A stretch of 28,098 nt of DNA. Origin: a virus. The stretch covers positions 1 to 28,098 of the IMG/VR virus record IMGVR_UViG_3300042691_014204, one strand, 5' to 3'. This document shows, piece after piece, positions 3,930-26,400 of this stretch. Numbering within the stretch: position 1 is the stretch's first letter; each line of letters opens with the position of its first letter. The notes under the pieces are model-generated. The model was not told where the DNA came from, did not search any database, and saw only the letters and a program-made list of their open reading frames with translations. The translations under genes were made by a program, and so were the position numbers.

Positions 3930-6203
3930 ATGCAAAAAGCCCTCCTTGAATTCCAGCAGACCGATGACGGTCTTCTCACCGCGTCTCCCGAAGGACGGGT
4001 TCCTGACCGCCGGATCGCTGATCCTAAGTCTGCCCATGCTTCTTTGCGGAAGATGATTGACGACGATGTTGATTCGAGCCGTGGCCGCGCCCAGTTCCAA
4101 GCAATGTTTGACGGGCAGCGCCCTTACCGTGACGAGGATCTGGTAGAGACCGGCCAAGGAGGGCGGTCTAACTTGAACTTTGACGAGGCTGGAGCTCTGC
4201 TTGAATACAGCATGAGCGGCTACGTTGACCTCTTCTCAAACACGGATGAGTTCCTTCGGTTCCGCTTACGCCCCAACTCGTTCCCCGCTCCACAGCGACT
4301 TGAGTATGAGTCGAAGATGAGCAAGATCTTCACGGGTATGCTCCGCAAATGGAGCAGCTTCTTCCACAAGTTCCTCTACTGCTGCCACCACTTCATCGTG
4401 GACGGCGTCTCAGTCTGCTACTACCCCGACCACCTCGACTGGCGCTGGCATGTGGCCAAGCTCGGAGATTTCTTTTTCCCGCGCCACACGCTCGCTGACC
4501 CCGGAGCTATGGAGCTAGCTGGAAGTATCCAGCGCTACAGACCTTCTCAGCTCTACGCATACATCAAGAATCCTGAGCAGGCCGCTGCGCTTGGCTGGGA
4601 CGTCAAGGCTGTCCGTGACGCTCTTATCAAGAGCGTCAACGCTGCCGGTGACCGCCGCGTCATGGATTGGGAGCAGGTTCAGGAGCGCCTCAAAAACAAC
4701 GACCTCTACTTTGACGCTGTCGGTAACGAGATCCCGATTGGGCATCTCTGGGTCAAGGAGTTTACGGGTATGTGGTCTCACTACCAGTTCCTCGACATCG
4801 GCACTCCTGACAAGTTCATCTATAAGAAGGAGGACAAGTATCCTGCCAACCGCCCACCGTTCAGTATCTTCATGTTTGGTATTGGGTCGAATGGCTACAT
4901 CCACAGCATTCGTGGCCTCGGCTACAAGATTTACCCCCACATCCAAGTCTCTAATCGCCTGCGAAATCAGGTGGTTGACTCTGCCATGTTGTCCAGCTCG
5001 GTCATGATTCAACCGGCTGACGAGCAGGCTCTCGCCGACTTGTCGCTGACTTACTACGGTCCTTATGCAATCTTGACGCCCGGCAACAAAGTCATTGAGC
5101 GCACGATCCCTAACCTTGGTAACAACGCGATGCCTGTCATCAGTGACATGTCTGCATTGTTGCAGGGCAAGTCCGGCCAGTACAGCTCGGTCGGCATGTT
5201 CGCTGACGACAAAGAGCGTACTCGTTTTGAAGTTGAAGCCTACGTTGCCAGAGCCAGCAAGCTCAGCATCACGAGCTTGAACTTATTCTACGAGCCGTTC
5301 CAGAATCTCCTGCGCGAAGTCGCACGTCGTGCGTTTAACCCTGACTACGGTCCTGATCTCCCCGGCGGCGACCTTGTTATTGAACTCCGCGATCGCTTAC
5401 TCGAAGAAGGAATTCCGGAAGAAGCCTTCGGCGTTATCGACTTCGACCGCTGCGTCGTCAACCGCGCTGTCGGTGGTGGATCTCCTGAAGCACGTCAACT
5501 CATCCTCAATGAGCTGGCAAGGGAAGCCCCGTCGTTTGACGATGTTGGCCGCCACAACCTCCTGCGAGACCGTATCGCTGCCAAGGTTGGTTATGACTTG
5601 GCCGACCGCTATGTTCCTGAAAGAGCTGACGCTCGCCCAACCATTGACGACAAGCTTGCCGTCTTGGAGAACTCTCACCTCATTGGCGGCGAAGACATCC
5701 AAGCTCAGTCTAACGAGCTGCACCTCATCCACCTGAAGCACCATGACGCCCGCTTGCGTCAATACTTTGACGGCATCGAGTCAGGTGAGACCACTATCGC
5801 AGACGCTCTGCAGCCGATGGTCATGCTTCATGCTCATGCTACCCAGCACGTTGAGTTGGGAGGTGCTGACCCAGCCATCTCAGACATGGTCTCGAACTAC
5901 CGCCAGCAACTCCAGCAATACGGAGAAATGATCTGGAATGGTCAGGAGAAGTTGAAGGCCGAAGCCCGCAAAGCCGAGAAGGAAGCCGCCAACGCAGCTC
6001 AGGAAGGTCAGCAAGCTCAGCCTGCCCAAGACCAGTCTCTTCCTCCCGAGATGGAGCGTAAGCTCATCGAGCAAAACCTCCGTCTTCAGATGAAGCAGGA
6101 GGAACATCAGCAAAAACTCCAGATGCGCCAAGCGGAGTTTGCCCAAAAACAAGCCATCAACGACGCTAAAGAAGCTGCCAAGCTTCGCCGACTTGGTGTG
6201 TAA
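3930..6203 (+). CDS. Portal protein
   Basis: A protein of 757 residues, in the size range of large podovirus-type portals, encoded downstream of the terminase and just before the scaffold and capsid genes. The dodecameric portal forms the DNA gate at one capsid vertex and binds the terminase. Visible traits are an N-terminal segment with paired acids (DDDVDSSRGRAQF, about 43-55), a mixed alpha/beta body (about 90-500) and a long Gln/Glu/Lys/Ala-rich helical tail from about 655 to the end (MKQEEHQQKLQMRQAEFAQ) that should be a coiled coil or barrel helix projecting into the capsid. The start ATG lies five bases after the previous stop and has no Shine-Dalgarno. The assignment rests on gene order, length and overall pattern. 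Confidence 0.8.
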   Translation: MQKALLEFQQTDDGLLTASPEGRVPDRRIADPKSAHASLRKMIDDDVDSSRGRAQFQAMFDGQRPYRDEDLVETGQGGRSNLNFDEAGALLEYSMSGYVDLFSNTDEFLRFRLRPNSFPAPQRLEYESKMSKIFTGMLRKWSSFFHKFLYCCHHFIVDGVSVCYYPDHLDWRWHVAKLGDFFFPRHTLADPGAMELAGSIQRYRPSQLYAYIKNPEQAAALGWDVKAVRDALIKSVNAAGDRRVMDWEQVQERLKNNDLYFDAVGNEIPIGHLWVKEFTGMWSHYQFLDIGTPDKFIYKKEDKYPANRPPFSIFMFGIGSNGYIHSIRGLGYKIYPHIQVSNRLRNQVVDSAMLSSSVMIQPADEQALADLSLTYYGPYAILTPGNKVIERTIPNLGNNAMPVISDMSALLQGKSGQYSSVGMFADDKERTRFEVEAYVARASKLSITSLNLFYEPFQNLLREVARRAFNPDYGPDLPGGDLVIELRDRLLEEGIPEEAFGVIDFDRCVVNRAVGGGSPEARQLILNELAREAPSFDDVGRHNLLRDRIAAKVGYDLADRYVPERADARPTIDDKLAVLENSHLIGGEDIQAQSNELHLIHLKHHDARLRQYFDGIESGETTIADALQPMVMLHAHATQHVELGGADPAISDMVSNYRQQLQQYGEMIWNGQEKLKAEARKAEKEAANAAQEGQQAQPAQDQSLPPEMERKLIEQNLRLQMKQEEHQQKLQMRQAEFAQKQAINDAKEAAKLRRLGV

Positions 6204-6572: not shown

Positions 6573-7715
6573 ATGTCCGACATGTCCCCCGCCACCCCGC
6601 CTACAGTACCAGCTACTTTATCAGACGAAGGAACGATCGCCGATCGCCTTGGATCGTTTGACGACCTCTTCGCCGCCCCTACAGAGTCTGGAGGAGCTAC
6701 TCCTATCGAGCCAACTCCTGATTCCAGCAACCCCGCTGACCCGACTCCTGACAGCTCGGAAAAAGATGACATGAGTTCCTTCCTCGGAAAGGAAGAGCCA
6801 GCTCCAGCCCCAGCTCCGGGAAGCGACGACGAAGATCGTGTCCCAGAGGGCATGACTGAGAAAGCAGGTAACCGGTGGAAAGAGCTGAAGAACGAGATCA
6901 AAGAGCTTCGCCGCAAAAACGAAGAAGCTACTGCTTCGCAGGTCGCTCCAGAAGAACTCCAGAAACTGAAGTCCGCAGAAGCTGAAGTCAGTGCGTTGCG
7001 CGAGAAGCTCGAAACCTACGAGCGTGAGATCATTGGCGTCAAGCTTGAGGCCACTGACGAGTACCAGAGGCAGGTTACGCTCCCGCTTGATACTGTTCGC
7101 TCGGTGGTCCAAGACCTCGCCGAAACCTATGAGCTTGATATTGAAGCCCTTAACTCTGCAGTCGTCGAAGGCAATCGCAGGGAGCGCGTCAAGAAACTTG
7201 CTCAACTGGCTGAGTCGATGCTTGAGCCTGATCGCTTGAAGCTCTACCGCTCCGCCGAAGAGTTTGATAACATCGTCGAGACCAAAGCAGCTCTCGAAGA
7301 GAACGCCGCTGAGACCCTGCAGAGATTCGAGGTTGAGCGTGCAGACGCGCAGCGCAAGCAGTCAGTGGAAGGTCTGCGGAAGCAAAAAGAAGCCGCTGAC
7401 GAAATGTGGGAGCTCATGACTAGGAAGCTGCCCTTCTTGGCTGACGAAGCCACCGCTAAAGCCATTCGCGCCGAGGCAGACACCGTTGATTTTAACTCTG
7501 CAGATCCCGGCCTCCGGGCTTATGGAGCTTATGCGGGGGCTGCACTTCCGCGATTAGCTAAAGCGCTTAGAACTAAAGAAGCTCGGATCGCCGAGTTGGA
7601 GCGTCAGATTGGTGCATTCAAGGGAGCTACTCCATCTTCGGGAGCTAGCGCTCCTTCCAGCGGAGTTAAATCAGGGTCGTTCCTTGACGCCATTGAAGCT
7701 GGACTCGGGAGATAA
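6573..7715 (+). CDS. Capsid scaffolding protein
   Basis: A protein of 380 residues directly before the capsid gene, with the usual composition of a phage scaffold. It has a disordered, acidic, Pro/Ser-rich N-terminus (1-95, with PAPAPGSDDEDR), then long charged coiled coil (NRWKELKNEIKELRRKN from about 98, continuing to about 150 and again about 205-285), and a Ser/Gly/Ala-rich C-terminal section ending in SFLDAIEAGLGR. Scaffolds guide procapsid assembly from the inside and then leave or are degraded. No protease motif is visible here and no separate head protease was found. A second Met at 6582 is an alternative start. The next gene lies 152 bases away across a structured intergenic region, the longest gap in the window. 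Confidence 0.78.
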   Translation: MSDMSPATPPTVPATLSDEGTIADRLGSFDDLFAAPTESGGATPIEPTPDSSNPADPTPDSSEKDDMSSFLGKEEPAPAPAPGSDDEDRVPEGMTEKAGNRWKELKNEIKELRRKNEEATASQVAPEELQKLKSAEAEVSALREKLETYEREIIGVKLEATDEYQRQVTLPLDTVRSVVQDLAETYELDIEALNSAVVEGNRRERVKKLAQLAESMLEPDRLKLYRSAEEFDNIVETKAALEENAAETLQRFEVERADAQRKQSVEGLRKQKEAADEMWELMTRKLPFLADEATAKAIRAEADTVDFNSADPGLRAYGAYAGAALPRLAKALRTKEARIAELERQIGAFKGATPSSGASAPSSGVKSGSFLDAIEAGLGR

Positions 7716-7723
7716 GATTTTTC

Positions 7724-7844
7724 TTGACTGACGATAGGCTCGTCATACTTTGACAGCGAGTTCGCTCGGTTACTCTGATACCGTTCATCGCTAAAGTATG
7801 TGAGCCTATCCTCCCTCGGCTCGGGGAACCCACTCGTCAGTCAA
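7724..7844 (+). promoter_or_regulatory. Nested multi-helix inverted repeat before the capsid gene (structured RNA candidate)
   Basis: Nested perfect arms line up in order: 7724-7734 with 7834-7844 (11 bp, TTGACTGACGA/TCGTCAGTCAA), 7733-7741 with 7802-7810 (9 bp, GATAGGCTC/GAGCCTATC), 7744-7751 with 7793-7800 (8 bp, CATACTTT/AAAGTATG), 7755-7759 with 7788-7792 (5 bp), and an apical 7767-7770 with 7780-7783. The first two arms share bases 7733-7734. On the 3' side a side hairpin, 7812-7815 with 7824-7827, fits between the two outer helices. Such nesting is not expected by chance. The element ends 23 bases before the capsid ATG. It could be a 5' leader structure, an RNase III-type processing site, or a separate small RNA. 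Confidence 0.75.
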
Positions 7845-7867
7845 TTTCAATCCCCCTTTCTACTTTT

Positions 7868-9214
7868 ATGCCTACCGTCGCAACTCTCTCTAACGCTCAG
7901 CTTGACGCTACCAATTCCATCCTTGTCAACGAAGCCGGTCGTATCGGCCCTGACATCTACACCAAGTCACTCAACACTTCCGCATGGATCAACCTCGCTC
8001 AGCGCGGTACGTTCCCTGACGAAATGGGTGACGTCATCAACGTCTTGACATGGGAGCGTTCGCTTCCCGGCACCGGCGGAGCACTTACCTTCTCTGACGT
8101 CGTCTCCCAGCAGTACTTCAACAACGACGGTGACCCAAACACCAACACCTCGACTACTGACGGGAGCTTAACAGGTGGGACGGTTAATGTCACCACCGGC
8201 GTGTGTCTCCCAACTCCAGCCGTCATCGGCTTTGGTCAGACAATCCGCCAGTACAACCTGAAACAGGCTGCTGTGCAGAGCCCCAAGATCTGCGTTCATG
8301 ACCTTCGCTACGCCGCGAAGCGCAAGGATCAGCTCACGGCGATGTTCAATATTCTCAAGGACAACACCAAGTGGGCTTGGGAGACCTACTACCGCTCAAC
8401 CTACTCTGATCTGGCTGAGCACAAGTTGGTTGTCAGTGGCGATCTTACCGACGTCAATGGCTCTGAATCATGGACGGTTCCTTCTGGTACAGGGCGTACT
8501 GGCACCGGCAGCAAAATGGAGAACATGAAGCACCTCTCACAGGGCATTCTTGACCGCATCTACCTCAAGCTCGTCCGCGAAGGCGCTGAGCCTTGGGGCA
8601 TGGAAAATGGTCGCCCAGTGTTCGCTGTGGTGCTCAGCCCTGAAGCTCAGGAGTTCTTGTTCCGTGGTCTTGGCGCACTCAACCTGCGCGACGACTTCCG
8701 ATACAATAACACCCGCGTTAATGAGCTGCTCGCTCCTCTCGGCGTTGAGCGCTCCTACAAGGGATGGTACTTCCTCGTGGACATGTTCCCGCGCCGTTTC
8801 AATCTGAACACAGCCTTAACTGGGTATGATGAAGTTCTTCCTTTCATCCCTGTGGAAGCTACTAACGGGCGCAAGTTTGTGCTCAATAACGCATACGAAG
8901 TGGCTGACATCGAAGAAGCCTACGTCTACGTCCGCGAGGCCGTTGAGTTCCAAGTTCCGAAGCAGCTCTCCAGCCCCGGCGGTGGCACCAGCTTCACAGC
9001 TCAGAACTACATGGGTGACTTCCGCTGGCTCAACATCCCGAATGAAATCAATAACCCTGACGGGACCATTGGTTTCTTCCGTGGCTTGCTGAGTGTGGCT
9101 GCAAAACCTGTGGCTCCTGACCTTGCAACGGTCATCCGCTTCAAACGTTGCGCTCCTAACGTCACTGGTTTAGCTTGTGGCGCTTTGACTGATGAGCTCC
9201 CGATCGCTCCGTAA
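7868..9214 (+). CDS. Major capsid protein
   Basis: A protein of 448 residues encoded right after the scaffold, the standard position and size of a major capsid protein. The sequence is mixed alpha/beta with aromatic-rich amphipathic segments (WAWETYYRSTYSD, FRYNNTRVNELL) and a Gly/Thr/Asn-rich loop at about 88-115 that could be an E-loop or surface insertion. No signal peptide or membrane segment is present. An HK97-type fold is assumed from the family, not seen. The start ATG follows a pyrimidine-rich stretch (TCCCCCTTTCTACTTTT) with no Shine-Dalgarno. High expression is expected for this gene, and its flanks hold the two strongest predicted structures in the window (7724-7844 before, 9225-9266 after). 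Confidence 0.78.
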   Translation: MPTVATLSNAQLDATNSILVNEAGRIGPDIYTKSLNTSAWINLAQRGTFPDEMGDVINVLTWERSLPGTGGALTFSDVVSQQYFNNDGDPNTNTSTTDGSLTGGTVNVTTGVCLPTPAVIGFGQTIRQYNLKQAAVQSPKICVHDLRYAAKRKDQLTAMFNILKDNTKWAWETYYRSTYSDLAEHKLVVSGDLTDVNGSESWTVPSGTGRTGTGSKMENMKHLSQGILDRIYLKLVREGAEPWGMENGRPVFAVVLSPEAQEFLFRGLGALNLRDDFRYNNTRVNELLAPLGVERSYKGWYFLVDMFPRRFNLNTALTGYDEVLPFIPVEATNGRKFVLNNAYEVADIEEAYVYVREAVEFQVPKQLSSPGGGTSFTAQNYMGDFRWLNIPNEINNPDGTIGFFRGLLSVAAKPVAPDLATVIRFKRCAPNVTGLACGALTDELPIAP

Positions 9215-9224
9215 TCCCGGTTAA

Positions 9225-9266
9225 CAGGGAAGGAGGCACCACCTGAAATGGAGGTCTCCTTCCCTG
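9225..9266 (+). terminator. Strong hairpin after the capsid gene, terminator-like without U-tract
   Basis: An 11-bp perfect inverted repeat, CAGGGAAGGAG (9225-9235) and CTCCTTCCCTG (9256-9266), begins ten bases after the capsid stop. A smaller inner pairing, ACCT (9241-9244) with AGGT (9252-9255), can form in the loop. No T-run follows, so an intrinsic terminator is doubtful; a processing or mRNA-stabilising hairpin fits as well. The 5' arm contains AAGGAGG (9230-9236), the only perfect Shine-Dalgarno match I saw placed before a potential start codon. Confidence 0.6.
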
Positions 9267-10677: not shown

Positions 10678-10708
10678 GGTTCTGAAGCTCCGCGCAACAT
10701 ATCAATGA
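10481..10708 (+). CDS. Outer-membrane spanin candidate (Rz1-like lipoprotein), overlapping gene
   Basis: A protein of 75 residues in a different frame from the gene it overlaps, running 31 bases past that gene's stop. It starts MRFFLLLLMVALVPGC, a compact lipoprotein signal peptide with a lipobox-like LVPGC, so Cys16 would be lipidated after cleavage. The mature part contains Ser/Pro-rich sequence (SSPSSAPPQLRL) and a short helix at the end, as in Rz1-type o-spanins. ATG 10466 would add five residues (MTDLT); ATG 10481 has the local CCATG context. A lipoprotein nested in a membrane-anchored gene beside an endolysin is the hallmark of Rz/Rz1 and implies a host with an outer membrane. Confidence 0.62.
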   Translation: MRFFLLLLMVALVPGCHCLKLKQRDSVESSPSSAPPQLRLKSGVPYVPKTDEVWANQQDFLDLKAEVLKLRATYQ

Positions 10709-11271
10709 ATCGCCCGCCCCACGAACTCGAAATCGGCAAACACATCCTCGATGTGGAGGCTCGACGTGACCGTAGTGGTAGGCTTGCCGTTTACAAACTC
10801 CCTTCCGGGGACGGCGGCGGCACCTTTGAAGTTGCCGGGATCAACGACAAGTATCACCCAGAAGCTTCTGCTCGGATCGCTGACCTAATTGCTCGGAAGA
10901 AATTCGTGCAGGCTGAAGAGGAGGCCACCGAACACATCCTCAAAGTCACCGACGTAGCTGGTGGGTGGGCGAGAACTCCGTCCACCGAAGCCGTGCTCCG
11001 GGACACCGCATTTAATCGAGGCACCACCGGGTGCGCCCGCATCCTTCAGATGGCCCTTGACGTAGAGGTTGACGGCAAAGTTGGGCCTATGACGCTGGCT
11101 GCTTTGCAACGTGCCGAACGTGAGCCTCGTGCTTTCCTGCTCCGGTTCCGCGAAGCTCGTCAAGCCTACGAATTGAAGGTCGCCCCGCCTGTCGGGAAGC
11201 GTGTCAAATTTTGGAAAGGCCTCGTCTCTCGCTGGGACAACACCACTAAGTTCGCAAACACCCTCGTCTAA
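10705..11271 (+). CDS. Endolysin: GH108-type muramidase with PG_binding_3-type C-terminus
   Basis: A protein of 188 residues, the normal length for phage GH108 lysozymes, starting in an ATGA overlap with the spanin gene. The family's catalytic Glu near the N-terminus corresponds to E18 in ILDVEARRD, where most members read E-G-G. A Gly-rich stretch (GDGGGTFEVAGI) matches the family's GG-T--GI turn. The C-terminal half fits the PG_binding_3 domain: FNRGTTGCARILQMAL from F103, then DGKVGPMTL from D123. No signal peptide is visible, so export should rely on the holin. The enzyme would cleave the glycan backbone of peptidoglycan at lysis. Confidence 0.82.
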   Translation: MNRPPHELEIGKHILDVEARRDRSGRLAVYKLPSGDGGGTFEVAGINDKYHPEASARIADLIARKKFVQAEEEATEHILKVTDVAGGWARTPSTEAVLRDTAFNRGTTGCARILQMALDVEVDGKVGPMTLAALQRAEREPRAFLLRFREARQAYELKVAPPVGKRVKFWKGLVSRWDNTTKFANTLV

Positions 11272-11273
11272 TT

Positions 11274-11603
11274 ATGGCTACTTGGCGCGGCAAAGAAGTT
11301 ACACTCAACTCCCCGAGGAAGATTCCGGGAGTAACTCCTGCTAACAAAAAGAAGAGCGTCTTCGTCAAGGACCCCGGCTCGGATAAGATCAAGATCGTCC
11401 ACTTCGGAGCCACCGGCTATGGGCACAATTACTCGGAAGCCGCCCGCAAGTCATACCTTGCTCGGTCGGCTGAGATCCGCGATAAGAGCGGCAACCTAAC
11501 CAAGAATGACAAGACGAGTCCCAACTATTGGGCGCGTCGTGATCTCTGGGCCGGTCCCGGCAAGGATCGTAAAACGCCACCACGGGGTAACGGGAAGTAT
11601 TGA
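11274..11603 (+). CDS. Small conserved-phage-type protein, function unknown
   Basis: A protein of 109 residues, Lys/Arg/Gly-rich and strongly basic. It starts two bases after the endolysin stop with the AATTATGGC context. The middle reads KSVFVKDPGSDKIKIVHFG, then KSYLARSAEI and SPNYWARRDLWAG. A KVFVKDP---K-K-V-FG segment followed by an R-x-F/Y-x-AR and an A-YW----W motif is a layout I recall from small proteins of cyanophages and other marine phages, where two cysteines are often present; here there are none. Function is unknown to me. Its basic charge would suit contact with nucleic acid or the acidic scaffold, which is speculation. Confidence 0.68.
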   Translation: MATWRGKEVTLNSPRKIPGVTPANKKKSVFVKDPGSDKIKIVHFGATGYGHNYSEAARKSYLARSAEIRDKSGNLTKNDKTSPNYWARRDLWAGPGKDRKTPPRGNGKY

Positions 11604-11607
11604 CGAC

Positions 11608-11622
11608 ACCGCTGACGGCGGT
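11608..11622 (+). other. Small hairpin before the tail-protein gene
   Basis: A 5-bp inverted repeat, ACCGC (11608-11612) and GCGGT (11618-11622) with loop TGACG, sits in the 33-base gap between stop 11603 and start 11637. No T-run follows. It is weak and could be chance. Confidence 0.3.
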
Positions 11623-11636
11623 TAGGTTGCGGATAT

Positions 11637-14600
11637 ATGATCCGCCCAAAGCCCGACGTTCCTGAGCGCTATCCCATTCTCTCATTCCCGACCCCCGAAG
11701 GGCAGGCCGACCTTCTCTTCTATGAGCTCCGGGATGGAGACTTGCCCAAGAACAAAGCATGGAATTATGGTGAGCCGCATCCTGACGCGGCCAAGTTTCC
11801 CAACCATGAGTTAGTCTTCGTGTCCGCCGCTGAAGGTGGAGCTGGTTGGCAGCGCTGGTATTATGCAGCCAACCGTGAGAACCAGCACCGGTACAACTGG
11901 CAGTTCACTGACACCACCGACTGGCCTCAGCTAGCGCAGACTTTCATCGTTCGCCGGTCTGACTTCTCCGTGACGTCAACGTATGAGATGCCTCCTTTAG
12001 ATGTCATCCCATACCCACTGGAGTGGCTTGCTACTGGGATCGAAGAGCGCCCCATCAATGACGAGACTCTCGCGTCAACCTTTGTCACTGTCGTTGTAAC
12101 CCGTGAGAAGATCCGGGTTCGCGCTCAAGATGGCACATACAGTGACCGCGAGATCGTTGGACGTGAGTTTGACCCTGACACCAACTCCACGACTACCTAC
12201 CGTAGGAGCAAAGTTCCAGCAGGGACAATCATTCCTGAAGGCATCCAACCCGATGGATCTGTTGTCGAGCTCCAACCCGTCAACACTCTTTGGTCGATCA
12301 AGAATACCAAGCAGGCTGCAGGGTTGGCCGGTAAAGCCGTAAATGGAAAAGCTTCACGGACGTTTCAGATCATCACTAACTGGGCTTGGCCTGCCGTGCT
12401 TGACTCTGTCAGGATCACCCCAGTAAAGTCGGACCCCGGCGACTTCTACTCAGCCATCACAGGCTATGTGACCGTTCCAATCTATGCAGCGGACGCGTAT
12501 TCTGGCCCCTGCCTTGCAACCATTATTGAAGAGTGGACGTCTAAAATCCCCGTAATTGGAGGTGATGGGGAGTGGGACAGCACAAAGTCCACCAGCCCTG
12601 CGCTCCCCCAACCAACACCCTTACTGCCGAAAAGTATCTACTTCGACAGCCCAAGTTTACGAGTTAATGTTCCTGAGTGCTTACATGGAACCTTGAATTT
12701 TTACGAGGGTAACTTCGAGCAGGTTTACCCAGCAACTACTCCCTATCGGTGGCCTGGGTCTGTTGTTGCTGAAGTAAATCTCAGCGCCAACCAAGGTGGG
12801 TGGCTGAAAAGAATAATGATTGTTAATGCCCCGTCGCTGTCAGGAGTTCTAACGGAGCTCATGCTTGAGCTAGACGCGCTGAACGCCACATCATTTAGCC
12901 TCAAGTGGAACTCCTTGGTAGACGTATACTCCCTGTTCCTCGACATATCTACCGACCCCACGTTTAAAGCAGGAACATTCTTGTCTGGGTTTGAGAATAA
13001 AGATGTCAAAGGGACCGTTGGAACGTCTTTGATTTCTGTTTCTCGCGGCGTGACATACTACTGCCGGTTAAAAATGTCGAGGGCAGTAGGAGCTACATTA
13101 GCTGCAAACGCAGCTAAACAAGCCGCCTCAGCATCAGGGCAGAATAGCACCCAAGCGCAGGCAGCCTATGTAGCCGCGTATAACGCTTTTGTAAATGACG
13201 CCGTCGCAAACAACAGGCTCCAAGGGGACCAGTCAAACACCCTCGCGGTAACGTGTCCACCACAGCCCGAGATCTCCCTCGCCACCCCCGGGGTTAACTG
13301 GCCCACCATCCCAACCAACTACACTGACCTACTTACTGGAGGCACTCTTACGTTTGACCCTACACAAACGTCGGCACCGTTGACGAAGACTGTCATCATT
13401 AGAAACCCGGGGCTGCTTCCGCTGTCTAATTTATCAGTCACTTTTTCTGCTGGCGATTTCTCTGCGACTGGGACGATACCTACCACTATTGAACCCGGCC
13501 AGTATGGAGTAGTCTCGGTTCGATTTGCCCCGACAACAGTGGGGGATAAGACAGGCACTATGGTAGTAACGTCAAATGCTATCAACAACCCTTCGTACAC
13601 TGTCAATCTAACGGGGAGCGCTGTTCAACCTGAAATTGATGTAAGGTACCCAGTAGGGCAGACGCCTCCCGCATCTAAACCGTCCGGGTCTGGAATCGCT
13701 CTGGGTTCTGTTAACACTGGCAGTTCGCAGACGTATGTGTTCTCGATACACAACTCGGGTAATGGTAACTTGACCGCTAGTATCAGTACGTCGTCAACAG
13801 AGCCATCATTGTGGCAGTTAACGGGGCAGCCCAGTTCTGCGATTCCCCCAAACACTAGCGATGAGTTCGAGGTAACTTTTTCACCCGGAACTTCCGTCGG
13901 CACTAAGACACTAAATATCTCGATTATTAGTGATGATACGACCGACGCGGAGAATCCGTACATATTGACTTTAACCGCCGAGAGTATTGCTGTTGGGTCA
14001 ATAATAGTAGCTTCCCCAGACGGTGCAGTACTCCCCGACGGTACTTATGACTTTGGATTTTCAGCCATTAACGTCTCAAAAGCAAAACTCTTTACTATAG
14101 GTAATACTGGGGTGGGGACTCTCACTGGCATAACGGCTGCGCTATATGGCGGAGGGGCTGACCAATTCATACTGGGCACCTATCCCGCAACGGTCAACTC
14201 AGGTAGCTCGGGATCGTTTAATATAACTTTTAGGCCAACTGCAAGTACGCCCACGGTAAAGAGTGCAGTCTTGGCGATAACGAGCAGCGACCCTAATCGA
14301 TCAATATTTTTCGTTAACCTTAAAGGCACTGTGGGGACGGATCACGAAATTGTGGTAGAGAGTCCCCCGAATAACAACTTAGTAGACGGCGTCAGTGTTG
14401 TTAAATTTGGATCTGTGCTGAGAGGGTCAACTCCACTCAATAATTTTGTAATCCGAAACATTGGGAACAATCGCTTAAATTTAATAGGCAGCCCTCCGGT
14501 TTCCGTAGTAGGCGGAGATTCCGCAAAGTTTATGGTCTCAGCGTTATCTCCCGCCGTAGCACACCTCGATGACGGACAGAGTACGACGTTTAGCGTCACT

Positions 14601-16081: not shown

Positions 16082-16260
16082 CCAGCGATCAACTCCTCGA
16101 CGGCGAAGCAGGGCCAGAAGCCCAGGCTAACGAGATCTTTCGTATCGTGTCGTCTATGATTGACGAGGCGGTGATGGAGGTTGGGCGTGTCTACGCCGCT
16201 GACGAGGGCACCATTGCCCATCCCGGTTTTCCTGTTGTCGTTGTACGAGATGCACCATGA
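16078..16260 (+). CDS. Small protein, function unknown
   Basis: A protein of 60 residues, joined to both neighbours by ATGA overlaps. It is mostly one helix (ANEIFRIVSSMIDEAVMEVG) followed by a short beta-like end (GFPVVVVRDAP). There is no membrane segment and no cysteine. The tight coupling with the next gene suggests that both act in the same structure, but nothing in the sequence reveals a role. Confidence 0.55.
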   Translation: MTSDQLLDGEAGPEAQANEIFRIVSSMIDEAVMEVGRVYAADEGTIAHPGFPVVVVRDAP

Positions 16261-17096
16261 GCCCTACCCAAGCCAGAGAAGTTATCGAAGCAGCCGGTGA
16301 ACGCATCGCCGACTGGAAATCACGCCTTCGGATTAACACTGGCAGAGGCGTTGAGACTTGGGACAACCAAGGCAGCCAACTGGTTTCGGTAGCTACTTCA
16401 GAAGAAGAAGTGGTTAAAGAACCAGTGGAGCTGCGAGTTTCTCTGTGGGTGTCAGAAGCCAGAGAAGTAATAGCGTATCCGAAAGACGGAAGTTCTTTAA
16501 ATGGAAGCCTCCAGATTTCCACGCAGTTTGTAGAGTATAGAAGCTTTTATGATGTGAGTGGCCTCCAGAGTGGAGAGTATATTGCTGAGGAGGCTTACAA
16601 GGACCCAGATGCGCTTGTGGTCGGTGATTTAGTTAGGCCGAAGTACGACGTGGGTACAATAAACGGAGTTCAATATTTTGATTTTTCGGTTTTCTACCGC
16701 CCCCAAACTGAGGATGACCCAACCGGCATCGGCGGAGGGGGCATCCCTAACGGTATTTCCACCCAGTACTCACCAAGGCAGACTTCAAAAGTGCGGCTCG
16801 TCCTTTCGGTTAGGTCTCACAGTTATGACTACATCAATGACCGCAATAGGCGTGGGCTTCCCATCGAGTTCAGTAGGGGCCAATCAAATGGATACTACGA
16901 CTTTATTGTCCGGCGAGAAGAACGAGACAGAAATGACTCTTCAGTATTGCGTTCTTTTAGGCAGCGCGTTGGGTTCGCGCCCATCACGTTAAACTTTGAG
17001 TCAGACAATAACGAGCCTTTTTTTAACAAGCCTTATTTCATGATGGGGTGGAATACTCCTGGGCTCATTAGCATAGTAGGATGCCGAAAGGTTTGA
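16257..17096 (+). CDS. Probable virion structural protein, beta-rich, function unknown
   Basis: A protein of 279 residues with an ATGA overlap at its start. The N-terminal 45 residues are helical (AREVIEAAGERIADWKSRL); the rest is rich in Tyr, Ser and aromatic strands (QFVEYRSFYDVSGLQSGEY, VQYFDFSVFYRPQ) with Gly-rich loops. From about 16,400 onward, codons become more A/T-rich and no TTGACG is seen until the stop, unlike the flanking genes, which hints at a replaced segment. Position in the tail block suggests a tail or fibre-associated role. I do not recognise the family. Confidence 0.62.
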   Translation: MSPTQAREVIEAAGERIADWKSRLRINTGRGVETWDNQGSQLVSVATSEEEVVKEPVELRVSLWVSEAREVIAYPKDGSSLNGSLQISTQFVEYRSFYDVSGLQSGEYIAEEAYKDPDALVVGDLVRPKYDVGTINGVQYFDFSVFYRPQTEDDPTGIGGGGIPNGISTQYSPRQTSKVRLVLSVRSHSYDYINDRNRRGLPIEFSRGQSNGYYDFIVRREERDRNDSSVLRSFRQRVGFAPITLNFESDNNEPFFNKPYFMMGWNTPGLISIVGCRKV

Positions 17097-17127
17097 CGCC
17101 CGCCCTCCAACCGTCTATTTTACCACC

Positions 17128-18060
17128 ATGTCTTCTATCCGCTTGACCGTAGCCAAAGCCCGTGACCTGCTCTACGAGCATGTGGATGCGTCCAACCCGC
17201 TGGATGAGAAGTTCCTGCGTTGCCTGAACCAAGTGGTGCAACGCTTCCTTGACAGCGGCCTATGGGCCAAGTCGGAGTTTCAGGTCGAGCTATCCGCACC
17301 TAACGGCTACATCACCCTCCCCCGTCGTGCTTCGGCGCTGCTGGGCTTCCGTGTTTCCAATCAATCCCCACGCCGGATCTTCGCGCTAGCCCATGAGTTC
17401 AATGAGGTCGGCCCCGGCCCCCATGAGTTTGACCGTACCATGTCCTCCGTCGTCGAGATGTCTGACGTTTCCGTCCACACCGACCTGACAGAGGCGACTA
17501 CTGTTTTCCTACGCGTGGCCGCCGGAGACACAGGAATCGGTGGTGAGGCAGTCCTGCGTGGCTGGGACGCCGACGGCAAGCGACTCTATTCTCCTGATGG
17601 ACGCGATGGATTGCGGGTCACCCTTGTTTCGGGGGACGGCAATAGCTTCGGATCTGTGCGTGAGATTGAAAGCTTGACGCTTCCAACCATGAGCAAATCC
17701 AGCTCCCTCCGCACCGCTGACATCGAACTCGGTGTCTATGAACCCGGTGAGGAAGACCCATCCTACCGTCGCTATAAAGTCGGGGCTATTCCCAGCAACT
17801 GCACCATCACCGCCCTTTGCAGCCGCCGCCATGTTGATCTCGTCAATGAGGATGATCTGGTAATCCCGAGCAACATAGGAGCCCTGAAGCATGGGCTCAT
17901 CGCACTTCGCTTGGAGGATCAGTCAGACCTTGACAGCTCCGTCGCCCACTTTGACCAAGCCTACGGCTTACTGAACGCTGAGCTTCGCCGCATCCGTGGC
18001 AAAGCCCGTGTCATCCCCACATTCAATTACGGCTCTCCCGGACTCCGCACCTCCTACTAA
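17128..18060 (+). CDS. Connector-like structural protein (head-tail adaptor or tail tubular type)
   Basis: A protein of 310 residues. Its first 60 residues (TVAKARDLLYEHVDASNPLD and FLRCLNQVVQRFLDSGLW) form helices of the kind seen at the N-terminus of podovirus connector proteins, which read a run of sequence positions through a helix-loop-helix before a beta domain. A conserved-looking stretch, YITLPRRASALLGFRVSN, leads into a beta-rich core, with EFNEVGPGPHEF shortly after. I recall LP-x-strand followed by EF--GPG as recurring in structural proteins of short-tailed phages. The last 60 residues are helical again (LRLEDQSDLDSSVAHFDQAY). The gene has a 31-base spacer with no Shine-Dalgarno. 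Role assigned by pattern and position only. Confidence 0.5.
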   Translation: MSSIRLTVAKARDLLYEHVDASNPLDEKFLRCLNQVVQRFLDSGLWAKSEFQVELSAPNGYITLPRRASALLGFRVSNQSPRRIFALAHEFNEVGPGPHEFDRTMSSVVEMSDVSVHTDLTEATTVFLRVAAGDTGIGGEAVLRGWDADGKRLYSPDGRDGLRVTLVSGDGNSFGSVREIESLTLPTMSKSSSLRTADIELGVYEPGEEDPSYRRYKVGAIPSNCTITALCSRRHVDLVNEDDLVIPSNIGALKHGLIALRLEDQSDLDSSVAHFDQAYGLLNAELRRIRGKARVIPTFNYGSPGLRTSY

Positions 18061-20362: not shown

Positions 20363-20409
20363 CCGCGCTTCCTTGACGAAGTGGCAAACTTTAGGCATGG
20401 TAGCCGAAT

Positions 20410-23400
20410 ATGGCTATCAAGACTTTCTCTGCCCTCCCAAGTTGGAATGATATTGAACAATCACCTACCTATCAGGAGTTAGACCAACCTCAACGCAAGG
20501 AGTACTTTGACCGCTGGCAGTCAACCTTCACCGAGGTCGCCACTGAAGATCCTGACAACATCACCCCTGAAGTCTGGGAAGGATTCAAAAAGTTTCGTAA
20601 ACAGAAGAGCCGCGACTTGACGGGAGCTACTGGCTTGACGGCGGCGAACGCCGAAGCCGAGGATGAAGCCGAGGATGAAACGCCGTCCCGTATTCAACTC
20701 GCTGCGCGTAAGCGTGAGCTTGAAGCAAAGTCCGGCACGTTTCTGGGAGGCACAGACCTCACACGGCTGCAAGAGGAAGAGCGCAACGAGCTAGCCAACC
20801 TTCGTAGCGTGGTCGCTGATACCGACGAAGACGACCTTGATGCCATCGAAAAGGTTGCCAACGATGACGAAGACTTCCATGTAGCTGACGGTGCTTTCTT
20901 TGCCAGCCCCAAGTTGACGCTCGACTCGCAACGCTACCGCGACACGGTCCGCAATAACAAGGCGTTGACGCCTGAGCAGAAAGTCGAAGCCCTGATGCGT
21001 GGTCGTTCGCTGCGTGAAGAAACCGGCGCTCGTCTCAAAGCAGACATTGACGCCGCCGACATGGCATTTGAAGACACTTGGTTAGGCGGCATGGATAAGT
21101 TCCGTGCGTTTGAACGAGACGTCCGCGAAGGCGACCCTGACGCCACCGATGCCGACATCATGGAGAAGTGGCAGAAGGAGAACGGCTCGTGGTATTCTAA
21201 CCTCGGCACCCAGATAAAAATCGGTGGGTTCCAAGGTGCCGCCCAAATTATCGGCGCCTACTACGGCGTCAAAGGTTTGGTCGGGATCGACACCGAGAAC
21301 TCTCAGCGCATGGCTCAAGCGGCTACTGATGTTAATGCCCAGCTCGCCGGAGCCAGCAAAGCAACCGGAGGCGCAACCCTTGCGGCTGACGCTACTGCTA
21401 TGGTGGTGACATCGCTGGCCACCCTACCTGCGGGCCCCGCTGGTCGAGGAGTTATGGCTGCTGGTCGCATTGCCGCTGGTACGGCTGGCCGCTTCGCTGC
21501 TGCTGCTACTGCTGGCCGTCTTGGTGGATCTGCGCTTGTCCGCGCTGCCACACTCAAGGCCGGTGGTGAAGCCGCCGCTAAGATTACTGCTCGTCAATTA
21601 GCTCTTGCCAAAACCGGAGGTATCGCGGCGTCCGCATTTGCCGCTGGTGTGCAGAGCGCCGGTGGAGCGTTTAATCAATACTTCGATCAGTTCCTGAAGG
21701 AGGAACTTGCTGAGATCCCAGAAGCTAACCGCACTCCTCAAATCATTGAAGAGGCCCGACGCCGCGCCCGTGATGGAGCCCGTGGAAGAGCCCTTGTTTC
21801 TGGAGCCGTCACAACGCTCATCACCGCTGGCTTCGGCGCAACGGGTGCTGAGAAACTTGCCGCCCCGCAAGCTAGCCGAGCAGCTCAAGCGGCCAAGGAA
21901 GGACTGGTTGTATTCCTCGGCAAATCTCTCAGCAAAGAAGCTCTCTCGGAAGCTGGTGAAGAAGGTCTTGACGCCCTCGCCAATGGGATCATTGACAAGG
22001 CAACGGTAAATCCCGGCAAGCCTCTCGAAGAGATCGTCGAGGAAACGCTGAAGTCTGCCCTCGCTGGCGGTATCCTTGGTGCTGGAATGTCTGCTCCGTT
22101 TGCCGTGTCTGACGCATTCAAAGCTAGGGCGGAAGCGAAGAAGAACCCAGCGGTTGCCGGGCTTGAGCAAACCGCCGCAAGACTTGACGGCCTTGCCCCT
22201 GCTTCCGCTGCAGCCGTGCGTGAGATGGCCGGTACCATGACGCAAGAACAGCTTGACGCAAAAGCTGCCGCTGACGCCGCTGCCGCTGACGCCCTGCTCA
22301 ATCCGCCGGTTGATGCAGGTCTCCAGAAGGTGGTTGACCAAGCCGCCAAAACTGGTGGCGCTCCTGCCACTAAGGCTCCGGTAAATGTCGTTCCTGCTGA
22401 GGCTGCTCCGGTAGCTAAAGGAAACGGATTTCAGGAATTGAGCGACGAAGACCTTGAAAATAATATTCGTCAAACTGCCCTTCTGGCAAACGAGAGTGCG
22501 GTTGAGGCCACCCAAGCAAACCCTACTGCTGGGTCACGAGAAGTGGCAGAGCTAGCTCAGAAGAAACTCGATATGCTGCGCGGCGAGCGTGAACGACGCA
22601 AGCAGACCGCTGCTCCTGCTCCTGCCGCGACTTCTGTCGGAGTCCCGATGATGGTAACCAAAGGCATGGAGAAGCAGCTTCTTGACAGAGGTTATACGAA
22701 ACAGCAGGTCGATGCTATGAAGCCTCAAGAGGCTCAGGATATTCTGAATCCTCCTGCAGCTCCTGCTCCTGTGGATGTTGTTGTTGAAAGCAGTCCCGCT
22801 CTTGCCCCCGCTGTCGGGGAAGCTCCGGCTCCTGCCGCTGCTGTCGAAGGGGCTCCTACTCCCGAGTTTGCTCCCACCGCTGAAGAGCAGGTATTCCAAA
22901 CTTCAAAAGGTAGCGAGTACATATTACATAGCGACGGGACTACCACCCGCAACAAGGCTGCTCGCCCTGAGCATCCGGGAGAAGAAGGCGTCCAGCCTAG
23001 AAGCTCTCGCACTATTTTTGTCTCCGAAGAAGGAATGAACGCGTTGGGCATTGTTCAGACCGAGGGAGTTAAGTTCAATATCGAACAAATGCCAGACGGA
23101 CGATGGGCTGCTCGCGCAGTGGATGGGCCTAACAAAGGGAAGTTCTACCAAACATCCATTACAGAAGCTAGCGACACTCCTTCTGCAGGGCTCATGCCTG
23201 TAGAGATTTGGAACCGAGAAGGTCGTCCTCAAGCTGTCCATTTTGGTAACAAGATTACGGGCGTGTCCCAGACTGCTGCTCCTGCTCCTGCCACTCCAGC
23301 AAGACCAGCCGCGACCACCATCAATGTCCCAGCTAAGCCAGTCTCAGTGACTAGGCCCGCAATGACTCCAGAAGTCCGCGTGACTGCTGTTCCTGCTCCC

Positions 23401-26400
23401 GTCGAAGAAGCTGCCCCTGCCCCAACAATCGACCAAGTTTGGGACGAACTGATCACAGCTAAGAGTAAGCTGGACGCAACCAATGATCCTGCTGAGTTAG
23501 TCGCTCTGAACGAGTCGATCAATAAGCTGAAGGAGACTATTAAAAACAGCGTCGAGCCTGCCCCGACACCTGCCGAAGAGACAGCTCCCGTTGAGGAACC
23601 TGCTTCAGAGGAAGAAGACACCGTCTCAATCGTATCAGACGAGGTCGCTAAAGCTGTGACCATCAACGAACAGGAAGCTAGAGACTATGTCGCTAAAAAC
23701 TATCCGGGCGTTGAAGTTGTAACAACTAGTGAGGCTACCGCTGACGGGTACCAGTGGAGAGGGCGCACGAACTTCACCCGTCAGCCTCCAAAGATTACAG
23801 TTAATCTGTCCAACATTAGGGACATGAGCCAACTAAAGAATGTTGTTCACGAAGAACTTTCTCATGTTGCTTACAACGACCCTGATATTTCTAAGAGCCT
23901 TAAAAGTCTTGTAGAGTCTACAAAGGTAAGAGAAGAGCTCGCTTCTATCTATGAAGAAGGAGAGGTCTTTGAAGAAGCCGTCGTCAAGAGGATGGCGGAT
24001 CTCGTTGACTCTTATTCAGAAAAAGGGGCATTTAATAAGCTGCTCACATCTATTAAATCCTATGTTAAAGGAAAGCTTGGAATCACCCTTAATGACAGCG
24101 ATCTCGCTTACGTCGCATACAGAGCTATTGTCAGAGCTAGTAAAGCTATTAACTCGCAAAGCGTTAGCAAAGCACCTCCTCCTCCAAGAGAGGGCGCTGA
24201 GGTTAATTTCTTTGATACTATAGACCTTGAACTGTTTGCAGCAGATGAGGCGAACATACCCGAAGCAGCGGTTAACCGGTACATCGATACTCGTTTAATT
24301 CTGCTCGCTGACAATAGACTAAACTATTCTCGAATCGATGCCTTTGACTTGTTTAAGTTTTTCCAAGATGCGAGATATGGAGATAAGCCCAGTAGAGATA
24401 AAGTTAGGCGGCATATAAAAGAGACTGCGGCTACCAATCTTTATGCGAGAAATAAAATCCGTGAGTCTGAAAAACAGAGCAAGTCAAACAGACGGAATTT
24501 TATGTTCCTATCTGGAACGTCACTACTATCGCTAGGTTACTTTGGTTTCTCTTCAACACAGACTCAGCCTCAGACTCAGCTAAAGCCTAAAGCTCCAGCA
24601 CAACCCAAGCAAGCTAAGCCAAAGCCTAAATCAGACAGTGAAAAAATAGAGGAAAACAATAGAAGGTTATTCCGAGAGTTTAAAGAGTCTCTTGTCTTTG
24701 ATAAAGAGACTAGCGACTTGATTAACAACACTTCTGAAAAGGTAGGCAAAGAGAAAAATAGCCGTCTTTCTGTGAAAGTGAGTGTCGGACCAAAAGCTTA
24801 TGATCCTGTAGAAGACTTAACTGGACTTCCAGAGGTAGTCGAAACAAACGCTCTTGATGAAAACAGAAACTCTATAAGCTTCACAAAGCGTGAGTACTCT
24901 GAAAAGGCGAACGAGATTATAAAGAAGCGAGAAAAACTAGAGGCTAATAAAGATGCCGTTGTTTCGGGCGTCTCTAAGATCATCAGGATTGCCGAAGAGC
25001 TGACCGGCTTTAAGCTTTCTAAAGATGTAAACATAGTTCTCAGAAACTTTGAATCCGACACCCTAACCTCTTTGATGAGGTCTAGGAAAGAAAAAGACCC
25101 TAAACAAATGGTGTGGTCTGCCAGCACAAATATCGAGTCGGGCGATATTAAAATGAACACAGAGGCAATCTACGACATTGTCTTTGGAGACGTTGAAAGT
25201 AAGATAAACGCGGCCTCTACACTGTTTAACGAGATCACTCATGTGATGCAGTTAAACAAAGGTAAGTCCGGCGAGCTTGGCGAACTTGGATTTACGCCTA
25301 CTCTTCCATACCCTATAGAAGTTTCATACAAAGCTTGGTTGGATGAGTTTTACGGACCTCAGACAGACAACATAGAATACGAATCTTTCGTGTTAGACTA
25401 TATGGGGACGAAAGTTCTTGAGCAGATTAACAACGTAAAGAGAACTGAGTTCTCTGACGAGTACATAACCTCGAAGGTTAAAGAAAACCGCCTTAAAATT
25501 ACCCACGGGAGAGATTTAATCCTCATCAAAAACCCGGTCAGATATTCAAAGGTGGCCCCTAAGTCAGCCAAGGCTACCCCTGAGCAAGCTGCCCTCAAAG
25601 ACAAGCTCATGGTGCTCGTCGGGCTGGCAGAGAACACTAAAAATCCAACACACATCCGCTCAGGTAGCGTAGATGCGCTTAATCTTTACCAGCAACAAGC
25701 CTCAGCACTCGGGACAAGCGTTGAAAAACTTATCGGTAGAGACATCCCTGTAGTTCCCAAGTTCACCCCACCCACACAGACCAATGAAAGCCAAACAAAA
25801 AAGTCGCCAACAAGTAGCGTTCCTCCTGTCGAAGGGCAGCCCGCTGTCGGAGAAGAAGCAGGACCGACTAAAAAGCGAGCTCCGGTCAGGACTCGTCAGA
25901 GTAAGTCCAGCGAAACCGAAGCGGTAGCTCCCCGTGAGCAAGCCATCGATCTTCTCCGCGAGGAGATGTTCAAGAATAACTTCTTGCCGACCGTGAAGGA
26001 AGTTTCGGAGAAGATCTTCCAGAGAACAGGCGTGGGGATAAGCTATCAAGATCCTACGGGGGAGCTAAAGCAAATCACTGACGGGTTGCTCCGCGATTGG
26101 AACGCTAGGTATCCTGCTGAAACGGAGAAACCTGACGGCACCTTTACGGGAGCTAAATCCGGGACTGCGATGAAGACTACCGAAGGTAGGTCTAAAGAAT
26201 ACATCCGCGACAATGGGGGCGCGGTACGCTACAAACTCGTCAACGGTAAACGGGTTGGGTTTTTCAGTAACCTCCCTCTTGAGACAGCCATGCAGCTCAA
26301 CGCTGGTCTCAAGGTGAACGTGCCTGTCGCTCTTCGCGGTAAGCTCGCTCCCGGAATCACAATCAATGAGTCGGGCGATGTGGTATCTGTATTTGAGCCC

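Follow-up and report, generated by a model that had tools for sequence, protein, structure and literature searches.

Gene context of the element

The window, that is, the whole stretch of 28,098 bases analysed here, is a contig of an uncultivated phage from IMG/VR. The features around the gap under study are as follows.

328-2130: large terminase gene (phrog_2 match)
3930-6203: portal-like gene, named from gene order alone
6573-7715, + strand: scaffold-like gene directly upstream of the gap, named from position and composition only
7716-7867: intergenic gap between the scaffold-like gene and the capsid gene
7868-9214, + strand: putative major capsid gene (448 aa)
10705-11271: endolysin gene (phrog_315)
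20410-28098: giant reading frame running off the contig end

The gap is 152 nt long, as a sequence-only reading of this DNA had given it. The capsid assignment is putative and is based on gene order only, the gene being located after the terminase, portal-like and scaffold-like genes. Nothing in Pfam, PHROGs, PDB or the sequenced phages matches the protein, and the prediction of its structure (pLDDT 30) is unusable. No close relative of the phage lineage is found within the sequenced-phage collection searched, and a terminase search of genome contigs for the host gives no match. A related contig of 61 kb encodes an integrase, a family A DNA polymerase and a helicase/nuclease.

Structure of the element

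The helices and neighboring segments of the element are listed below. Two alternative middle folds, called folds A and B, are described later.

7724-7844, + strand: whole structured element, P1 to P1′ (z −6.5; conserved in nine relatives; alignment A6)
7724-7734, + strand: P1 5′ arm (11 bp), TTGACTGACGA, pairing with 7834-7844; all alignment cells paired, two compensatory pairs
7834-7844, + strand: P1 3′ arm, TCGTCAGTCAA, partner of 7724-7734, on the same basis as the 5′ arm
7733-7741, + strand: P2 5′ strand in fold A (9 bp); GGCTC at 7737-7741 invariant, with two possible 3′ partners
7802-7810, + strand: P2 3′ strand in fold A; GAGCC at 7802-7806 invariant, with GGCTC at 7818-7822 as an alternative partner
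7744-7751, + strand: 5′ strand of the 8-bp helix in fold A, partner 7793-7800; not retained in relatives
7755-7792, + strand: P4 and apex, with AGCGA/TCGCT at 7755-7759/7788-7792 (5 bp) and CGGT/ACCG at 7767-7770/7780-7783 (4 bp)
7812-7827, + strand: 3′ side hairpin TCCCT-CGGCTC-GGGGA, loop GGCTC conserved
7845-7867, + strand: pyrimidine-rich leader without a Shine-Dalgarno sequence before the capsid start; composition kept, sequence not

The sequence-only reading described nested arms of 11, 9, 8, 5 and 4 bp, and every one of these helices is located where it was placed. The two outer arms overlap by the two bases 7733-7734. The side hairpin on the 3′ side is also found (7812-7816/7823-7827), with 5 bp including one G-U pair.

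The proposed structure stands out clearly from dinucleotide-shuffled sequence. The folding energy of 7700-7870 is −59.9 kcal/mol, versus −40.4 ± 3.8 kcal/mol in 200 dinucleotide shuffles (z −5.2), none of which is as low. The 130-nt segment starting at 7723 has a z of −6.5, the lowest among the 1,076 + strand segments of the window, and the z values of the element range from −5 to −6.5 across foldings. Rfam 15 gives no match in the window at the gathering threshold, in line with the earlier remark that no known family was recognised; at a lax threshold, only one irrelevant weak match appears elsewhere (E 2.5). The element at 7724-7844 is a real, conserved RNA structure that matches no catalogued family.

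Other strongly folding segments exist in the window. The second-strongest on the + strand is 16329-16485, inside the gene at 16257-17096 (z about −5.4), and a − strand segment within the portal-like gene (4681-4810) has a z of −6.9. One-mismatch copies of TTGACTGAC number 20 on both strands of the window, compared with 6.8 expected (0/100 shuffles).

Conservation and covariation in close relatives

In nine further contigs, the capsid protein is 72-100% identical to that of the window. All nine possess the element, in one copy each with 79-100% identity, immediately before the capsid-like gene, and the same-strand position directly upstream of that gene is kept in all ten clade contigs. Between lineages, the element is 79-93% identical, versus 37-62% at four-fold degenerate sites of the capsid and portal genes. 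The conservation of the element is thus far above that of neutral codon sites, indicating that it is under strong selection. Searches with wider sequence patterns of the element found the same contigs or chance matches only, and none in bacterial genomes.

In alignment A6, neither P1 nor P4 (about 7755-7761/7787-7792) has an unpaired cell; P4 is fully paired in all lineages, and the apex is invariant. Four pairs change on both sides, two in P1 and two in P4, so the compensatory changes expected in the arms of homologous phages are present, in these two helices only. This number of pairs is reached by 15/500 shuffles and the number of such cells by 3/500, and sliding the P1 and P4 partners abolishes the signal. 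Since the sample comprises about five independent lineages, the support from covariation for P1 and P4 is modest: good but not overwhelming. The variants in the two helices include 11 G-U cells and no A-C cells, and the z value is stronger on the + strand than on the − strand in all five clade members folded. These observations indicate that the structure is RNA of the + strand. None of the eight outer pairs of P1 varies, which points to a constraint on sequence as well as on pairing, as expected if the pairs double as the −35 region described below.

The preferred pairing in the middle of the element differs among relatives. The invariant GGCTC at 7737-7741 can pair either with GAGCC at 7802-7806 (fold A) or with a later GAGCCC-type sequence (fold B, a cloverleaf). 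Fold A, to which the 9-bp and 8-bp helices belong, is strongly favored in the window and its nearest relative, L010, fold B is favored in L003-L006, and L007 is mixed. The nested arrangement of the sequence-only reading is therefore the minimum-energy fold in the window and L010, but most relatives prefer other middle pairings and do not retain the 8-bp helix. The middle helices of both folds have no compensatory support in the alignment.

A probable promoter in the 5′ arm

The start of the element coincides with a likely promoter, which the sequence-only reading overlooked.

7724-7751, + strand: probable capsid promoter, −35 box TTGACT at 7724-7729, spacer 16, −10 box TACTTT at 7746-7751

Judging from its sequence, TTGACT-N16-TACTTT is probably a promoter dedicated to the capsid gene. 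Under a matrix built without this site, it ranks joint third on the + strand of the window. Both boxes are conserved in the clade, the −10 box being TAGTTT in relatives, though the spacer is 16, as opposed to 17 in the family pattern TTGAC[TG]-N17-TANNNT. That pattern occurs just upstream of several genes and is conserved in relatives; over 252 kb, the N17 spacing gives 19 matches, compared with about 7 for a typical spacing. Transcription is predicted to start near 7758, with a leader of about 110 nt. An upstream ORF in the element was considered and rejected, since in the window an ATG is followed at once by TGA, and L003 and L004 have no ATG there.

The distances between such −10 boxes and start codons should be noted. 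The distance is 25 nt for the terminase gene, 8 nt for the gene at 11637, 6 nt for the gene at 17128, and 8 nt for the CATGGT form before 20410. The last three sites, TTGACG-N17-TAGGTT, -TATTTT and -CATGGT at 11600-11637, 17093-17128 and 20373-20410, respectively, are conserved and end 6-8 nt before the starts. In published work (PMC3160421), a −10-like box located some 10 bp ahead of a start codon is taken as an indication that the gene is leaderless. Of the 19 start codons inspected, most show no convincing Shine-Dalgarno sequence at the normal distance, the exception being the gene at 9248, with GGAAGGAGG about 11 nt upstream. Two or three other genes of the phage thus appear to have leaderless mRNAs with promoters directly against their start codons. 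The promoter-like site before the terminase gene (301-354, TTGACT-N17-TATTGT) is also conserved; a conserved GTCGTA-A-rich stretch after its −10 box may be an operator.

The overlap of the 5′ arm with the likely promoter has a consequence for the fold, in that the complete structure can form only in RNA read through from upstream. In a transcript begun at about 7758 the P1 5′ arm would be missing, and the leader folds like shuffled sequence, with z values of −0.05 to +1.0 in five clade members. The covariation in P1 and P4, on the other hand, spans the predicted start, so that selection appears to act on RNA started upstream. Two layers, fold and promoter, would therefore need two transcripts.

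The gap in more distant capsid relatives

With the middle part of the capsid protein as the query, a scan detected L128 (57% identical over the whole protein) and L129 (34%), and a profile search added four more contigs, L132, L133 and the near-identical pair L134/L135. Counting the pair as one, five distant lineages are available. Their gaps before the capsid gene are 156-248 nt long, and each contains a promoter-like site; the sites listed here were chosen by eye and are of uneven quality.

L128: TTGACG-17-TGGAAT
L129: TTGTGA-17-TATTCT, after an intrinsic terminator
L132: TTGACA-18-TAATAC
L133: TTGACG-17-TAACAG
L134/L135: TTGACA-16-TAAATA

No fold comparable to that of the element is found in these gaps. 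The z values are −0.25 to −1.1 in L128, L132, L135 and L129 (without its terminator) and −2.3 in L133, whereas the clade of the window gives −2.6 to −7.1 in the same comparison. A covariance model of the element has no match in distant terminase relatives, L128 or L129. The leader of L128 is homologous to that of the window (2/500 shuffles align as well) and has no P1; it contains a hairpin homologous to the 3′ side hairpin, with the GGCTCG-type loop TTGGCTCG. The occurrence of promoter-like sites in the distant gaps and of the fold only in the clade suggests that promoter and leader are older, and that the closed 121-nt fold appears to be an addition of the clade of the window.

Homology of the L129 leader, suggestive by eye (a GGCTCGA-loop hairpin with AGCACGC upstream), is not claimed, since the alignment is not significant (184/500 shuffles align as well). 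The capsid leaders of L132 and L134/L135 have a hairpin with a common loop, GCGGTAAA, on differing stems (12/500 shuffles align as well).

A proposed two-layer capsid control region and its alternatives

The suggestion of a capsid-gene leader with a regulatory role is the best reading of the element, which is structured, covaries in two helices and lies directly before the capsid-like gene. It is probably a cis-regulatory element for shell-protein production that overlaps the promoter of the capsid gene. We give an even chance to a more specific model, in which a cis-acting capsid control region consists of two overlapping layers, an older DNA promoter and a clade-specific RNA fold. In the first layer, a sigma-70-type promoter at the start of the gap would drive a capsid mRNA with the leader of about 110 nt. 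In the second, complementarity between a 3′ segment and the promoter region would allow RNA read through from the terminase, portal and scaffold genes to form a single closed domain of 121 nt that takes up the whole gap. No + strand terminator-like site is called in the gap, in keeping with such read-through. Both transcripts would exist, the read-through RNA with the full fold and capsid mRNA without it added by the dedicated promoter; this is the simplest reconciliation of the unfolded promoter leader with the P1/P4 covariation. The closed domain would make the capsid output of the polycistronic transcript differ from that of the dedicated promoter, possibly by insulating the boundary behind the scaffold gene or having it processed, or by holding the leader in a different conformation. 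The spacer of 16 instead of 17 counts against the promoter layer, and L128, the closest outgroup, manages without the fold, which counts against the model as a whole. The idea that the fold keeps the start codon open finds no support in silico, where access to the start codon is no better than with shuffled sequence.

A possible though doubtful alternative is a pure RNA leader in which no promoter is embedded. All capsid mRNA would then come from upstream, the 121-nt fold would be a protein-binding, RNase III-like processing or stability element, and the TTGAC/TAnTTT match would be a by-product of the helix sequence. Such a leader fits the covariation across the supposed start site, the ordinary folding of the leader-only RNA and the spacer length. 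Against it are the high rank of the promoter site on the + strand and the fact that five distant lineages without this fold also have promoter-like sites in the corresponding gap.

An extension of the two-layer model, which we regard as rather improbable, is that the region senses the origin of the transcript. The leader structure would depend on whether transcription started at its own promoter or read through from the scaffold gene, and would set the capsid-to-scaffold ratio, the switch being the choice between the two pairings open to the invariant GGCTC and GAGCC segments.

It is unlikely that the element acts in DNA, with the arms as protein-binding sites around the promoter (operators or DNA looping) or as folded single-strand DNA, and with incidental RNA pairing. 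The invariance of TTGACTGAC in both arms, where the inner P1 pairs vary, and the flanking of the promoter-like site by the arms are in keeping with such a role, but the bias to G-U over A-C in P1 and P4, the consistently stronger + strand fold and the covariation of P4 inside the element favor RNA.

A free-standing small RNA, including one with a packaging-RNA-like role as once suggested, is very unlikely, and nothing points to a free-standing transcript. The size of about 120 nt, the junction architecture, the late-gene context and the dense conservation are what such an RNA might have. Against it, no promoter-like site is found directly upstream of P1, the position is fixed to the capsid gene, the large terminase is ordinary, and the fold is missing from L128 and other relatives of the same capsid lineage.

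An intrinsic terminator, attenuator or self-cleaving ribozyme can be set aside as highly improbable: the structure is stable and lies between genes, the same gap of L129 has a true terminator, and a CTGACGA string resembles a hammerhead core, but no T-run follows the fold and no Rfam ribozyme matches. Hammerheads have a conserved CUGANGA and GAAA core; CTGACGA occurs in the window and L010 only, with no GAAA partner, and the core is not conserved.

Comparison with known structured RNAs

The element can be compared with several known RNAs. Comparative genomics has revealed structured cis-regulatory leaders of mRNAs such as the manA and wcaG motifs, which also occur in cyanophages (PMC2864571). 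As in those cases, a conserved structured RNA that is not tied to a known family precedes a phage gene and is backed by comparative evidence; those motifs, however, are widespread and precede metabolic genes, whereas the present element is found in one narrow clade, where it lies before a capsid gene and overlaps a probable promoter. In phi29-like phages, the packaging motor includes pRNA, a separate RNA whose loops interlock (PMC5340915). The element resembles it in its size of about 120 nt, its helix junction and its occurrence in a tailed phage, but is tied to the capsid gene in a phage with an ordinary phrog_2 terminase. Moreover, the apex loop (TACTCTGAT, or ATCTCCAAA in relatives) and the side-hairpin loop GGCTC are not complementary as read from the alignment, and membership of the packaging RNAs is unsupported.

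T7-like phages have intergenic hairpins processed by RNase III. The element shares with them a long stable helix between morphogenesis genes, but its helix is interrupted by a side hairpin or junction. GOLLD and ROOL are several hundred nucleotides long, and some occur in phages. Like these ornate RNAs (PMC12286853), the element is an uncharacterised, strongly structured RNA, but it is only 121 nt long and has no Rfam match.

Structured leaders on tailed-phage capsid genes are little described in the literature searched. The building of a virus particle depends centrally on the right ratio of shell protein to scaffold. If real in cells, the element would be a new, uncatalogued RNA family in which a promoter and an RNA fold occupy the same bases. 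The probable leaderless genes in the same genome provide a contrast against which the role of the long leader can be tested directly.

Other features of the phage

The giant reading frame encodes at least 2,563 aa in the window and about 3,900 aa in a related contig (L030:2-5968 with L029:14278-19998). The idea that it is a virion RNA polymerase with hairpin promoters was rejected, as it has no Pfam or PHROG match. Two related contigs carry tRNA-Met (CAT) genes, at L034:18765-18839 and L037:15018-15093.
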